DNA of 64,000 nt from positions 868,001-932,000 of the forward strand of contig NZ_AP022581.1 of assembly GCF_010731535.1 (NCBI RefSeq), read 5' to 3'. Each line of letters begins with the position of its first letter. The stretch's first letter is position 1. Positions 10,987 to 41,195 of the stretch are shown in pieces. The DNA comes from Mycobacterium lacus. GTDB lineage: Bacteria; Actinomycetota; Actinomycetes; Mycobacteriales; Mycobacteriaceae. Both the position numbers and the translations under genes were made by a program. The notes under the pieces are model-generated. The model made no database searches, was not told where the DNA came from, and saw nothing but the letters and a program-made list of their open reading frames with translations.

Positions 10987-11048
10987 CGCGAGCAGACGCA
11001 AAAGCACCCATTTCGGCACGAAAATGGGTGCTTTTGCGTCTGCTCGCG
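10987..11048. terminator. Bidirectional palindromic terminator (TRIT type) between glgC and the methyltransferase gene
   Basis: A perfect 27-bp inverted repeat spans 10987-11013 and 11022-11048 with an 8-base loop; each arm carries the core GCGAGCAGACGCAAAAG. It lies 3 bases after glgC and 9 bases after the convergent gene. Mycobacteria are known to use such long hairpins, often without a strong U-tract, as intergenic terminators. Here an AAAA/TTTT run within the arms could serve both strands. Confidence 0.85.
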
Positions 11049-16127: not shown

Positions 16128-16167
16128 CCCGGCACTTCGCTGAGCAGACGTAAAAGCTCCTGAAAAC

Positions 16168-17798
16168 GGTGCTCCTGACCTATCCGTGGGTTGATGGGTT
16201 GGAAGTTTCTTCTTGCTCCCTTCCGCGATAGTTGCTCGTTGGCGCTGCCTGCGTGGGAGGTGTCCATGTGGAGCCCCCCGAGCGCAGCGAGGCGGAACGA
16301 CATGGACACCGACGCGCGGGTGGCGCAGAATCGGCGACGCTGCGGAAGGGGCCCGCCAGGGGTGCCCTGGTGGGGTGTTAGCCGCGGCCGGGCAGTGTGG
16401 GGCGGTGGCCGCCGAGGGCGAGCATGGCCAGCGCGATCAGTGCGGCGGGGTTGTGAAACCCGAACGCGACGCGGGTCAGGACCCGGATTTTGGTGTTGGT
16501 GGATTCGATCAGTCCCTGGGACAGGCCGTGGTCGAGGGCGGCGTCGATGGCCTGGCGGTGGCGCACGATGCGGCCGGCCAGCTCGACGAATACCGGGATG
16601 CGGCAGCGCCGCGCCCAGGAGATCCACCGGTCCAGGGCCTGTTTGCCTTCCTCGCCCTTGACCGAAAACACGTGCCGTAGGCCCTCTTTGAGCAGATAGG
16701 CACGGTATAGCCGGGGATCGGTCTTGGCGATCCAGGCCAGTTTGGCGGTTTGACGTTCGCTGAGGTCTTCGGGGTTTTTCCACAGCGCATAGCGGGCACC
16801 CTTGAGCCGCCGTGCCCGCTCATGACCCGGCCGCGGCGCGGTGTTCTTGGCGGGCCGGCCACGGCCCCATTTGGCCTCGGTACGCGCCAGCGTCCGCGCG
16901 TCATTCCAGGCCCGGCGCCGCTCGGCGTCCAGGGCCTCGGTGGCCCAGGCCACCACGTGAAACGGATCGGCGCAACGGATCGCGGCCGGGCAACGCTCGG
17001 CGACGACGTCGGCGATCCAGTCCGCCGCATCGGCGGACACATGGGTGATCTGCGCGGCCCGGTCGGCACCCAGCGCGTCGAAGAAGCGCCGCAGGGTGGC
17101 GGTGTCGCGTCCGGGCGCGGCCCAGATCAGGTGGCCGCTGTCGTGGTCGACCACCACCGTCAAATACTTGTGGTGGCGTTTGTAGGCAATCTCGTCAATG
17201 CCGATACGACGCAGATTGGCGAACCGATCGACGGTCTTTTCGGTGTCGGCCCACACCCGGGCCACGACTGCCCCCACGGTGCGCCAGGCGATTCGCATCA
17301 GTTCGCACACCGCGGTTTTCGAGCAGGCCACCGCCAGCCAGGCCACCGTGTCATCAAAGGCAAACGTGTGTCCAGCATGGTGACGCGCCCACGGCACCAT
17401 CACCACGGTCGGCCCATGGGCGGGGCAATTCACCCGCGGCGCCTCGGCCTCCAAAAACACCCGGATCGTGCCCAAGTCCAAGCCCCGCCACCGCCGCGGT
17501 CCTCACCCCGGTCATACCAGGGCGCCTTGCGTTGACAGCGGCCACAGCGGCCCGACATACCGCTGCGCGAGCGCACCCGCGCCACCACCAACTCCGCGCC
17601 ATCGCCGTCTTCAGCGAACTCGATGTCCTCGATTACCGTGCGGCGGTCGACACCAAGCAGCGCACGCCATAGCCTCACATTGCGCACGTCGTTGCTGGCT
17701 CCTTTGGTTTCGGACCCTTCACAAGCCAGAAACCTTAAGCCACAACGGCGTGCGCCCCTACTTCGCTGCTATCCACCCACGGAACTGTCAGAAGAGCC
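16168..17798 (-). mobile_element. ISL3-family insertion sequence, 1631 bp, with 8-bp target duplication
   Basis: Terminal inverted repeats lie at 16168-16195 and 17771-17798 (21 of 28 positions match; both start GG and share TCCGTGGGT). The flanking direct repeat CTGAAAAC is present at 16160-16167 and 17799-17806; 8-bp duplications are typical of ISL3. The single transposase gene is on the minus strand and is frameshifted. Intact ends and an exact duplication suggest a fairly recent insertion. Confidence 0.92.
16378..17687 (-). pseudogene. ISL3-type transposase, frameshifted
   Basis: Two overlapping frames together give a normal-length transposase of about 436 residues. The upstream frame (start 17687) carries MRNVRLWRALLGVD and the zinc-finger pair CGRCQRK. 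The downstream frame (from about 17510 to the stop at 16378) carries LDLGTIRVFLEAEAPRVNCP, then the DDE core with IGIDEIAYKRHHKYLTVVVD, VSADAADWI, CADPFHVVAW and the last acidic motif GLIESTNTK. A one-base indel near 17495-17515 breaks the frame between the zinc finger and the DDE core. It may be an inactivating mutation, programmed frameshifting or a sequencing error. Confidence 0.85.
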
Positions 17799-17843
17799 CT
17801 GAAAACGCCAGTTTTCAGGAGCTTTTACGTCTGCTCAGCGAAC

Positions 17844-31446: not shown

Positions 31447-32619
31447 ATGGCCGAGATAGTGCTGGAGCACGTCAACAAGAGTTACCCCGACGGGGCGATG
31501 GCCGTAAAGGACCTCAACATCACCATCGCCGACGGCGAATTCCTGATCCTGGTCGGGCCTTCCGGCTGCGGCAAGACCACGACACTGAACATGATTGCCG
31601 GACTTGAGGATATCTCGTCGGGAGAACTGCGCATCGGCGGCGAACGGGTAAACGAGAAGGCGCCGAAAGACCGCGATATCGCGATGGTGTTCCAGTCGTA
31701 CGCGCTGTACCCGCACATGACCGTGCGGCAGAATATCGCGTTTCCGCTGACACTGGCGAAGATGAAGAAGGCCGACATTGCGCAGAAGGTCGCCGAGACC
31801 GCCAGAATCCTCGACCTCACTGACCTTCTGGATCGTAAGCCGTCGCAGTTGTCGGGCGGGCAGCGGCAGCGGGTCGCGATGGGCAGGGCAATCGTGCGCC
31901 ACCCCAAGGCATTCTTGATGGACGAGCCGCTGTCCAACCTGGACGCGAAACTGCGAGTGCAGATGCGCGGCGAGATCGCCCGGCTGCAAAAGAAGCTGGG
32001 CACTACCACCGTCTACGTCACCCACGACCAGACCGAGGCGATGACACTGGGCGATCGCGTGGTGGTGATGCACGGGGGTGTGGCGCAGCAGATCGGCACT
32101 CCCACTGAGCTTTACGAACGCCCCGCCAATCTGTTCGTCGCGGGCTTCATCGGATCGCCGGCAATGAATTTCTTTCCCGCCAGTCTGACACCGATCGGGT
32201 TGGCGCTGCCCTTCGGTGAGGTGACACTGACGCCAGAAGTCCAGGAGGTGATCACCGTGCACCCGAAACCGGACAACATCGTCGTCGGGGTGCGACCCGA
32301 ACATGTGGCGGATGCCGCGTTGATCGACGGCTACCAGCGCATCCGGGCGCTGTCCGTTGAGGTCACTGTCGACATGGTCGAATCCCTGGGCGCCGACAAA
32401 TACGTGTATTTTTCCGCCCCGGGTTGTGATGTGCACTCGGCTCGGCTGGATGAGCTTGCCGCTGACTCGGAAGCGAATGAAAGCCAGTTCGTGGCAAGGG
32501 TTCCCGCCGAATCGAAGGCTGCCATCGGAAAGTCGATCGAGTTGGCTTTCGACACCTCGAAGCTCACCGTTTTCGATGCCGACTCCGGGGTAAACCTGAC
32601 CATTCCGGTGTCGCCTTAA
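31447..32619 (+). CDS. sugC: Trehalose ABC importer ATPase SugC
   Basis: The 390-residue MalK-type ATPase has Walker [10 protein letters not shown] near residue 37, signature [14 protein letters not shown] near 135 and Walker [13 protein letters not shown] near 155, then an OB-fold regulatory domain ([12 protein letters not shown]). It energises trehalose uptake. It is the last gene of the operon; the terminator after it has been invaded by an IS110-type element. Confidence 0.96.
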
Positions 32620-32696
32620 GGGGTCGCGAGCAGACGCAAAAGCTCCCAATTTCTCGGCGTAGTAAGAGAGCTATGCCGATGAATGTTGATCAGAAG

Positions 32697-32753
32697 GACG
32701 CCCTCCTGGTGTCGTTGACGGGCTTGGAATCCCAATACATCCAGGAGGGCGTC
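32697..32753 (+). promoter_or_regulatory. Hairpin burying the transposase ribosome binding site
   Basis: GACGCCCTCCTGG (32697-32709) pairs perfectly with CCAGGAGGGCGTC (32741-32753). The right arm contains AGGAGG and ends directly before ATG 32754, so pairing hides the Shine-Dalgarno sequence. This is the layout of translational attenuators that protect transposons from read-through transcripts. It could also be part of an IS110 bridge RNA. Confidence 0.7.
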
Positions 32754-34089
32754 ATGGTTCAGGGTAGTGGTCTGTCGCGCGGTGACAAGCGGCGCAATGC
32801 CAGGTTGGCTCGGTTGCGGGAATTGGTGCCGGCCAGCAACGCGATTTTGGCGATCGATTTGGCCGATGAGAAGCAGGCGGTGGTGCTCTGCGATCATGAT
32901 TCGCGGGTGCTGGCCCGTCGCACGGTGAAAGCCAAGGCGTGGCGGCTGGGCCCGGTACTGGCGTGGGCGCGCCAGGAGGCGCGCAAGCATGGTTTCGCTG
33001 ATGTGACGGTGGGTTGTGAACCGACCGGGCATCGCTGGCGGGTGCTGGATCAGCTTGCTGCCCAACAGGATATGGCGTTGGTGTGTGTGCAGCCGCTGCT
33101 GGTTGGGCGGGCCCGCGAGACCGAGGACTACACCCGAGATAAGACCGATCACAAGGATGCGGTGCTGATCGCGCGGCTGGTGGCCCAGCTGGACTGCTAT
33201 GTCCCCGAGCGTGCCGACGAAAGCTGGGCGCAGCTGCGCCAGTTGGGCGCCTATCGGGACCGGCTGATCACCACAGCCACCGCGGCCATCCAGCAGCTGC
33301 GCGATCTGCTGGAGTGCGCCTGGCCGGCGGTGCTGACCGCGGCCGCCGACCCGTTTGACTCGATCACCTGGTGTGCGGCACTGGCGGTGGTGCTGGAGCG
33401 TTGTGATGGCCGCCCGCAGCGGCTGGCCCGGCTCGGCCCGACGCGGTTTGAGCAGGCGGTACGCCGGGAGTTCGCGCGCTGGGGGGGAAGGCGGGGGCCC
33501 CGGCGGCGCATCCTGACCGCGGTCTTTACCGCGCTGACCGATCCGGCCGGGGTATTGGCGCAGCGCCTGGGTGCGCTGCAGCGCGCCAAGTGGGTGCTGG
33601 CCGATTGGCGCGCCACCAAGACCCGCTTGGCCGAGGTGGAGACCCACATGGTCGCCATCCTCGATGAACTCAGGTTGACCGAGCTGGTCAGCAGCATCCC
33701 CGGCGTCTCGGCACTGGGGCGGCCGCCATCCTGGCTGAAACCGGCGACCCCACCCGCTTCGATAGCCCGCGCGCTGGTCAAACACGCCGGGCTGTGCCCG
33801 CGGGAGAACGCCAGCGGCACCATGACGGGCCGGTCGCGGATCTCCGGGCGGGGCCGGCCCCGGCTGCGGCTGGCGGCCTGGCGCGCCGTGTGGGGCGCCC
33901 TGCCGAATAACCCGGTAATGGCCGCCCGCTACCGGCATTTGACTAGCCGAGCGCAATCCGCTCAAAGACGGGCAAGCCCGAGCCGCTATCGCGGCCGCGC
34001 TGCTGCGCTGGATACATACCATCGTCACCCGCCGGGTGACCTGGGACGCCGCCATCGCCGGCCCCACCGAGCTGCCCGCAGCTGCCTAA
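32754..34089 (+). pseudogene. IS110-family transposase, multiply frameshifted
   Basis: The N-terminal RuvC-like DEDD domain is intact: ILAIDLADEKQAVVLCD near residue 30, VGCEPTGHRW near 82 and DYTRDKTDHKDAVLIARL near 122. The C-terminal Tnp_20 region is damaged. After SSIPGVSALG about 20 residues are in the wrong frame before the correct frame resumes at RALVKHAGLCPRENASG. A further shift after RHLTSRA moves the true C-terminus (ARAAIAAALLRWIHTIVTRR) to another frame ending at 34089. ATG 32754 follows the RBS hairpin; an ATG at 32673 is in the same frame. Confidence 0.85.
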
Positions 34090-34286
34090 CCTCACCCACC
34101 CCGAACCAACCGAATGAAATAGGTTGGGGCCAAGCTCCACTCGGCGTAGAGGACCACCTCGACCGACACCATGAGCAGGCCCCGCCCATTCCTCACCGAA
34201 CTCGATTGCACGCTGTCGGGGCATCACGAACCCCGGTTGATCGCTACGTAGAGACGATGAACGGGCAGGCCCCCCAACCCCTTGAC

Positions 34287-34313
34287 AAAAACCCCTTACG
34301 TTGGTGTCGGGGT
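34287..34313 (-). terminator. Possible intrinsic terminator of corA
   Basis: On the minus strand, ACCCC (34313-34309) and GGGGT (34295-34291) form a short stem with a 13-base loop, followed by a TTTT run. It begins 24 bases after the corA stop and lies at the inner edge of the split palindrome. It could replace the terminator lost on this side. Confidence 0.45.
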
Positions 34314-34336
34314 CTTTTGCGTCTGCTCGCCGCGAC

Positions 34337-35440
34337 CTACAGCCAGTCTCGCTTGCGGAAACTGATGTAGAGGAATATGCAGATGGCGACCATTGCGCTG
34401 ATCACCGTCGGGTAACCCCACCTGGAGTCCAGCTCGGGCATGAAGTGGAAGTTCATGCCATAAATCCCAGCGACCATGGTGGGCACGGCGATGATGCCGG
34501 CCCACGCCGATATCTTGCGCATGTCCATGTTTTGCTGCATGCCGACACGCGCCAGCGCGGCCTGCACCAGCGAGTTGAGCATGTCGTCGTAGCTGGCGAT
34601 CTGATCCGCGGCCTCCGTCTGGTGGTCGGCGACGTCACGCAGGTAGCGTCGCACTTCCTTGGAAATCAGGTCTTTGCTCTCCGTCTGCAGTCGCTGGAAG
34701 GCGGCGGACAGCGGGCTCACGCACCGGCGTAGTTCGACCACCTCGCGCTTGAGCAGATAAATCGGTTCGACGTCGAGCTTGCGGCTAGGGGCAAACGCCA
34801 CCTCCTCGATGCTGTCGATATCGGTCTCCATCAGACTGGTCACCGCCAGGTAGTGGTCCACGACGTAGTCGGAGATCGCGTGCAGCACCGCGTACGGCCC
34901 CAGTCGCAGATGGTCGGGGTCGGAATCCATTCGCTTGCGCACGTCGGACAGTCCGCCGTGTTCGCCGTGCCGCACCGTGACCACAAAATCCCTGCCGACG
35001 AAGATCATGATCTCGCCGGTCTCCACGATCTGGCGGGCCAGGACCACCGATTCGTGCGGCACGTAATTCACGGTCTTCAGGACAAGGAATAGCGTCTCGT
35101 CGTAGCGCTCCAGCTTGGGCCGCTGGTGCGCGTGCACGGCATCCTCGACCGCCAACGGGTGCAGGCCGAAGACGTCGGCCACGTCCTGCATATGGCTCTC
35201 GTCGGGCTCGTGCAGACCGATCCAGACGAATGCCTCATGGCCCGTCAGCTCGATCTCGCGCACCCTCGCCAGCGCGGCGTCGTGCGTGTACTTGCCGGGC
35301 AACCGGTGGCCGTCGACGTAGACCCCGCAGTCGACCAAGGCGTCGGCCGGGCCGTTGACCGGGTGTCCATGCGGCTCGTAAACCCGGGGCTTTGCGATTG
35401 GCCTCAGCACTTCAGGCAATGCGTCAAATCCCGGAAACAC
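34337..35440 (-). CDS. corA: CorA-type Mg2+/Co2+ channel
   Basis: This 367-residue protein has a large cytosolic N-terminal domain and two C-terminal membrane helices; the selectivity motif GMN is in AGIYGMNFHFMPEL near residue 325. CorA forms a pentameric magnesium channel. GTG 35440 is chosen because GGAGG precedes it and H37Rv CorA begins with the same FPGFDALPEVL. The frame is open further upstream without homology. It is divergent from mdh. Confidence 0.94.
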   Translation of the reverse strand: MFPGFDALPEVLRPIAKPRVYEPHGHPVNGPADALVDCGVYVDGHRLPGKYTHDAALARVREIELTGHEAFVWIGLHEPDESHMQDVADVFGLHPLAVEDAVHAHQRPKLERYDETLFLVLKTVNYVPHESVVLARQIVETGEIMIFVGRDFVVTVRHGEHGGLSDVRKRMDSDPDHLRLGPYAVLHAISDYVVDHYLAVTSLMETDIDSIEEVAFAPSRKLDVEPIYLLKREVVELRRCVSPLSAAFQRLQTESKDLISKEVRRYLRDVADHQTEAADQIASYDDMLNSLVQAALARVGMQQNMDMRKISAWAGIIAVPTMVAGIYGMNFHFMPELDSRWGYPTVISAMVAICIFLYISFRKRDWL

Positions 35441-41133: not shown

Positions 41134-41195
41134 CGCGAGCAGACGCAAAAGCCCCCATTTGCGCCGCCAAATGGGGGCTTTTGCGTCTGTTCGCG
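41134..41195. terminator. Bidirectional palindromic terminator between lpqZ and the SDR gene
   Basis: 28-base arms lie at 41134-41161 and 41168-41195 with a 6-base loop; one position pairs as G-T. The core GCGAGCAGACGCAAAAG is shared with the hairpins at 10987 and 32626. The hairpin lies 16 bases after lpqZ and 8 bases after the convergent SDR gene. Confidence 0.85.

Follow-up and report, generated by a model that had tools for sequence, protein, structure and literature searches.

How does an insertion sequence (IS) come to lie inside a terminator-like palindrome, and what directs it there? The question arises in a 64-kb stretch of Mycobacterium DNA (the window), where a 60-bp palindrome between two convergent genes is split by an IS110-family element. 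We take the genes to be sugC and corA, following the earlier note on this DNA and the conserved gene order; the occupied gap runs from the sugC stop at 32619 to the corA 3' end at 34337. The left arm of the host palindrome, GCGAGCAGACGCAAAAG, lies at 32626-32642 on the forward strand and is matched by an exact inverted copy, the right arm, at 34314-34330 on the reverse strand. The earlier note had placed a decayed IS110 element inside a repeated, terminator-like palindrome, and these exact arms, together with the IS110 families found in an intact relative (see below), bear it out.

The palindrome is a repeated feature of the host. With up to three mismatches allowed, arm GCGAGCAGACGCAAAAG was matched 8 times in the 64-kb window against 0.25 expected, and two uninterrupted palindromes of the same family, recognised by arm matches and fold at 10988-11047 and 41135-41194, both have arms whose starts are separated by 43 nt. 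Across the source genome (5.09 Mb, a single contig) the same tolerance gave 274 arms against 24 with a reversed-pattern control, which points to about 125 palindromes or, by simple arithmetic, roughly 0.15% of the genome. The majority hold no IS. Convergent genes flank most of them: a rough ORF test, with the arms of one palindrome scored separately, placed 22 of 29 classified loci in that setting. Hairpins of the family fold at -37 to -61 kcal/mol, with CTTTTGCG after the inner stem. A simple terminator scan of the occupied site found no terminator; from the hairpin shape, the T run and the place at gene ends we infer that the palindrome ends transcription.

An IS110-family element and its insertion junctions

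The element is 1.65 kb long and, as judged from its four genomic copies and from relatives, occupies 32661-34303 between the cores on the forward strand. It contains a transposase pseudogene of the DEDD (IS110) type at 32754-34089, forward strand, identified by copy alignment, reading frames and the families of an intact relative, with which the window copy aligns but in shifted frame. This relative (L046, 74-75% identical) matches the Pfam families DEDD_Tnp_IS110 and Transposase_20 (PF01548, 2.8e-24; PF02371, 6.5e-23) and, above the cut-off, the NCBIfam family IS110 (NF033542). The four copies share about 99% identity and none retains an intact transposase frame as assembled, in keeping with the decay that had been proposed. 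Since several of the differences are bases inserted or deleted within runs of G or C, some of the frame breaks could be assembly errors. In the window copy a stem of the predicted bridge RNA described below is also changed (GAGGAA to GATGAA), and the altered stem and dead transposase together mark this copy as a relic. A plasmid search for the element returned distant relatives only.

Before the transposase gene lies a leader hairpin, GACGCCCTCCTGG...CCAGGAGGGCGTC (32697-32753, forward strand), which is conserved throughout actinobacterial relatives and would bury the Shine-Dalgarno sequence of the gene; it probably blocks translation of read-through transcripts. We considered this left-end hairpin as a guide and rejected it because it is unchanged in groups of relatives with different targets.

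At the left junction, the host sequence CTCGGC (32653-32658) in the palindrome loop is followed by a GT core at 32659-32660, and at the right junction a second GT (34304-34305) precedes the host sequence GTCGG (34306-34310), all on the forward strand. Comparison of copies, relatives and guides assigns CTCGGC, which varies between copies, as the left target and GTCGG as the right target. There is no target duplication. Instead a core dinucleotide is common to the element ends and the target, being GT here, at both junctions of the copies read, and AT or CT in relatives, in which the T is invariant. Joining the flanks of each copy yielded the empty sites CTCGGC-GT-GTCGG (window), CCGGC-GT-GTCGG and ACGGC-GT-GTCGG for copies 2 and 3, and CAGC-GT-GTCAA for copy 4. 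The earlier note had looked to the flanks of all copies for the arm core GCAGACGCAAAAG as the recognised motif. Aligned, the flanks do have a sequence in common, but what all four copies carry at the junction is C[GA]GC-GT-GTC; the arm core is not shared, the arms of copies 2 and 3 being variants and those of copy 4 absent, so that GCAGACGCAAAAG no longer stands as the motif.

Three of the four copies occupy GAGCAG-type palindromes with differing arm variants, those of copies 2 and 3 being, respectively, GCGAGCAGCCGCAAAAG opposite GCGAGCAGTCGCAAAAG and GCGAGCAGTCGCAAAGG at either end. The empty sites of these two copies form a complete hairpin (-53 to -61 kcal/mol) in which the target string makes up the 3' strand of the inner stem together with the loop, and that of the window copy folds at -37 to -38 kcal/mol. 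Uninterrupted palindromes with such a loop exist in related genomes, one of them (L206) 95% identical to the reconstructed site; they were retrieved with a query that included the loop and so speak for existence, not for frequency. Copy 4 (L039) lies outside the palindromes at a near-match of the target with no hairpin, and is itself split by an insert of about 2 kb. That insert starts CTAGCCCGAAGTTGCGACGGG, and the same sequence adjoins an ISL3-occupied palindrome in the right flank of another locus (L040); it is a third repeated element.

The arms are inverted and closely flank the element in three copies, as terminal inverted repeats of the element itself would. We nevertheless give that idea almost no credence. 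The arm variants differ between copies, similarity between copies ends inside the arms, and copy 4 has none. Moreover, the palindrome recurs about 125 times, mostly free of any IS, also surrounds ISL3 elements, and stands uninterrupted, with a different loop, between sugC and corA at the orthologous locus in a relative (L202). We therefore assign the arms to the host, as the target into which the element inserted, in agreement with the original proposal.

A predicted bridge RNA in the right end

In IS621, an IS110 element with a CT core that targets REP sequences in E. coli, the left end encodes a bridge RNA whose first, less conserved loop binds the target and whose second, more conserved loop binds the donor; the target loop matches the left target and core on its 5' side and is complementary to the core and right target on its 3' side (PMC11208160, PMC11208158). 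We collected relatives of the window element from 397 Mycobacterium genomes and from named genomes of Mycolicibacter, Amycolatopsis, Nocardia, Nocardioides, Micromonospora, Terrabacter and others. The region between the transposase stop and the right end is conserved, and in all relatives read it has this right-end location. Alignment of 28 actinobacterial elements gave a consensus fold of two stems with internal loops, a predicted bridge RNA at 34122-34281 on the forward strand with 27 pairs, 12 of them showing double changes. In the alignment 97.7% of cells were paired. Double changes affected 78 cells, compared with 25 after shuffling and no more than 11 with partners slid. An Rfam search with the RNA returned no match.

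The first loop of this fold spells out the insertion site, as CTCGGC-GT plus GT-GTCGG. Its 5' side carries the predicted left target guide CTCGGC-GT (34140-34147), identical to the left target and core, and its 3' side the right target guide CCGACAC (34163-34169), complementary to GT-GTCGG, that is, to the core and right target. The match of this loop to both element ends had suggested a donor loop, an assignment we rejected because CGGCGT and GTGTCGG are target-derived on the IS621 pattern (PMC11208160, PMC11208158). On that reading loop 1 serves the target, and loop 2, which is conserved, serves the donor. The predicted donor-binding loop has as its 5' side TTGCACGCTG (34206-34215), assigned from the alignment and partially matching the right end, and as its 3' side CTACG (34244-34248), the complement of the core and left end CGTAG; these and both target guides lie on the forward strand. 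In most elements the 3' side tracks the core, with CTAC, CTAT or CTAG for GT, AT or CT. The donor loop of the window element matches the ends only in part, and the match to the right end is clearer in AT-core relatives (TTACGCTG, TCACGCTG).

If the predicted guides direct insertion, they should change with the targets. For the AT-core class, 21 elements from other actinobacteria, the right guide and right flank agreed in 100 of 105 positions, where shuffled pairs reached 68 on average and 84 at most; shuffling leaves some relatedness, and the right flanks of this class come from different genomes. Their variants (GAGCG, GTGCG, GTCCG, GGTCG, GACCG, GACAG, GATGG and GAGAG) were nearly all met by a matching guide. 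The GT-core class agreed at 79 of 85 positions on the right (17 insertions; shuffle maximum 77) and at 69 of 80 on the left (16 insertions; shuffle maximum 67), the junctions of a few relatives having been hand-corrected from their sequences. Not one of 100000 shuffles reached the observed match in any of the three tests.

We consider it very probable, on these sequence comparisons, that the window element is the decayed remnant of an IS110-family element whose site was chosen by base pairing. Its bridge RNA, encoded in the stretch from the transposase stop codon to the right end, would have two guides in the target loop, CTCGGC-GT and a complement of GT-GTCGG, that pair with the insertion site. 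Sequence comparison establishes the palindrome and both ends of the element, how the RNA folds, and that guides match and covary with targets; transcription of the RNA and its use by the recombinase we infer. An RNA-guided landing had been suggested in the earlier note, and the match of the predicted target loop to the insertion site and the covariation of guides with targets uphold it. Its expectation that this loop would match the terminator held for the loop and inner stem, which the guides spell, and not for the GCGAGCAGACGCAAAAG arms.

The window element and IS621 have in common a DEDD transposase, a target loop that comes first and is variable, a donor loop that comes second and is conserved, an NT core and a repeated palindromic target. 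They differ in that IS621 encodes its RNA ahead of the transposase gene, in the left end, and the window element after that gene, in the right end; in the core, which is CT in IS621 and GT (AT or CT in relatives) here; and in the target, REP as against a terminator-like mycobacterial palindrome. A long noncoding region that follows the transposase gene and includes a guide RNA is shared instead with elements of the IS1111 type such as ISPa11, ISKpn4 and ISEc11, whose guide is termed seekRNA and some of which target repeated, foldable sites (REP, attC) (PMC11187229). In seekRNAs, however, the top-strand match precedes the bottom-strand match (PMC11187229). The window element has the reverse order, that of the IS110 group, with the bottom-strand match 5' and the top-strand match 3'. 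The IS1111 group also has subterminal inverted repeats of 7-17 bp, where by eye the window element has GTAAG/CTTAC only. The window element thus combines an IS110 guide order and a right-end RNA, features that the papers cited here place in separate groups. That IS110 elements target repeated palindromes (REP, attC) was already known; apparently new here are terminator palindromes as an IS110 target, which extends the palindromes so used from REP and attC, and IS110-ordered guides in the right end. A limited literature search on IS insertion in terminators yielded nothing on point.

Target choice within and beyond the palindromes

The target string CGGCGTGTCGG forms the loop or inner stem of one palindrome class, and a guide that spells the loop of this class would take the element into terminator palindromes. 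The habit may persist because such sites are many and harmless, and they may be safe landing sites. Of the 34 occurrences of the string in the genome, about 8 fall in intact palindromes and at least 7 in a single repeat, the remainder being apparently genic. The repeat in question, atgcgtagagctgtgacctcggccgttatcagtgtgtgacCGGCGTGTCGG..., has at least 7 copies (L174, L176, L181, L182, L186, L189 and L200), and those seven loci carry no IS110 at the target string. With only about 8 of the 34 strings in intact palindromes, pairing alone fails to predict that three of four copies lie in terminators, and selection may add to guided targeting. Selection might even account for the whole pattern, had the element inserted widely, its genic copies been lost and those between convergent genes remained. 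The copies are old enough for frameshifts, and no IS110 copy was seen at any of the about 17 apparently genic places with the target string; yet intergenic DNA far exceeds the palindromes, three copies have the same position in these palindromes, and guides fit targets base by base, which makes survivorship by itself quite improbable.

Relatives with other guides bear on what is recognised. In a sister group from several other Mycobacterium genomes, the guides are close to AGCG[TC]GC-GT-GT[CT]TG and the left flanks read GCGAGC at different loci. These guides match not the loop but the arm, GCGAGCGTGCGTGT[CT]TG, of another repeated palindrome. With one mismatch allowed, the 17-mer GCGAGCGTGCGTGTNTG was matched 35, 18, 12, 6 and 4 times in sister-group hosts and 0 times in the control, and the unoccupied sites sampled fold into hairpins. 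In one host (G084) the prevailing repeat starts CCGAGC, and the insertion found there likewise. The palindrome with arms GCGAGCGTGCGTGT[CT]TG was seen in L063- and L022-type hosts G022, G084 and G232 (loci L232-L240). A fold-energy test of empty sites gave strong hairpins for the GAGCAG class only; sister-group palindromes are longer and imperfect, an arm-alignment test resolved only some of them, and their status as palindromes is based on motif repetition and from hairpins at unoccupied host sites. For AT-core relatives outside Mycobacterium, in which guides matched, the fold-energy and arm-alignment tests found no hairpin preference, so that terminator targeting appears to be a general mechanism tuned in a way particular to mycobacteria.

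These observations also address whether the extruded terminator hairpin itself is recognised, with the sequence match secondary. Such recognition of structure would suit the three IS110 copies in strong hairpins, the occupation of the same palindromes by an unrelated ISL3 element and the capacity of ISPa11 and ISKpn4 targets (REP, attC) to fold (PMC11187229). It is an unlikely explanation, since copy 4 lies outside any hairpin, AT-core relatives match their guides with no hairpin preference, and groups insert at the loop or the arm of palindromes as their guides predict. The near-match at copy 4 in particular suggests that pairing rather than hairpin shape is decisive. Guided pairing, the reading we prefer, links an RNA-guided recombinase with a defined multi-copy mycobacterial target and supplies guides, cores and empty sites that are directly testable. 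It likewise makes testable whether mobile elements reach terminators through guide evolution or are left there by selection.

The second IS in the window occupies the same palindrome family by other means. A palindrome at 16140-17838 is interrupted by an ISL3 element (16168-17798; Pfam DDE_Tnp_ISL3, 1.8e-67) with the 8-bp duplication CTGAAAAC. It has a DDE transposase and makes 8-bp duplications, unlike the IS110 element, and we know of no guide RNA in ISL3 elements. The genome holds 13 ISL3 copies (L073-L085), 12 of them in GAGCAG-type palindromes and the thirteenth outside, confirming that a second, unrelated IS uses this palindrome family. Their duplications fall in the A/T-rich upper stem, a different part of the palindrome from that used by IS110, and two copies (L078, L079) sit in the two halves of a single palindrome. 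Our judgement is evenly balanced on whether, within Mycobacterium, an actinobacterial IS110 lineage whose bridge RNA lies in the right end has more than once retuned its target loop to different parts of terminator palindromes, the loop in one group and the arm in another, with ISL3 independently exploiting the same palindromes; if so, terminators would be a harbour where different transposition chemistries converge. Among ISL3 relatives elsewhere no insertions in the GAGCAG-type family were found, and their targets are mostly A/T-rich 8-mers. In four of these relatives from other Mycobacterium (L260, L265, L270 and L271), the 8-bp duplication is centred in short GTCA-N8-TGAC palindromes, a further palindromic preference, rather than in a terminator palindrome.
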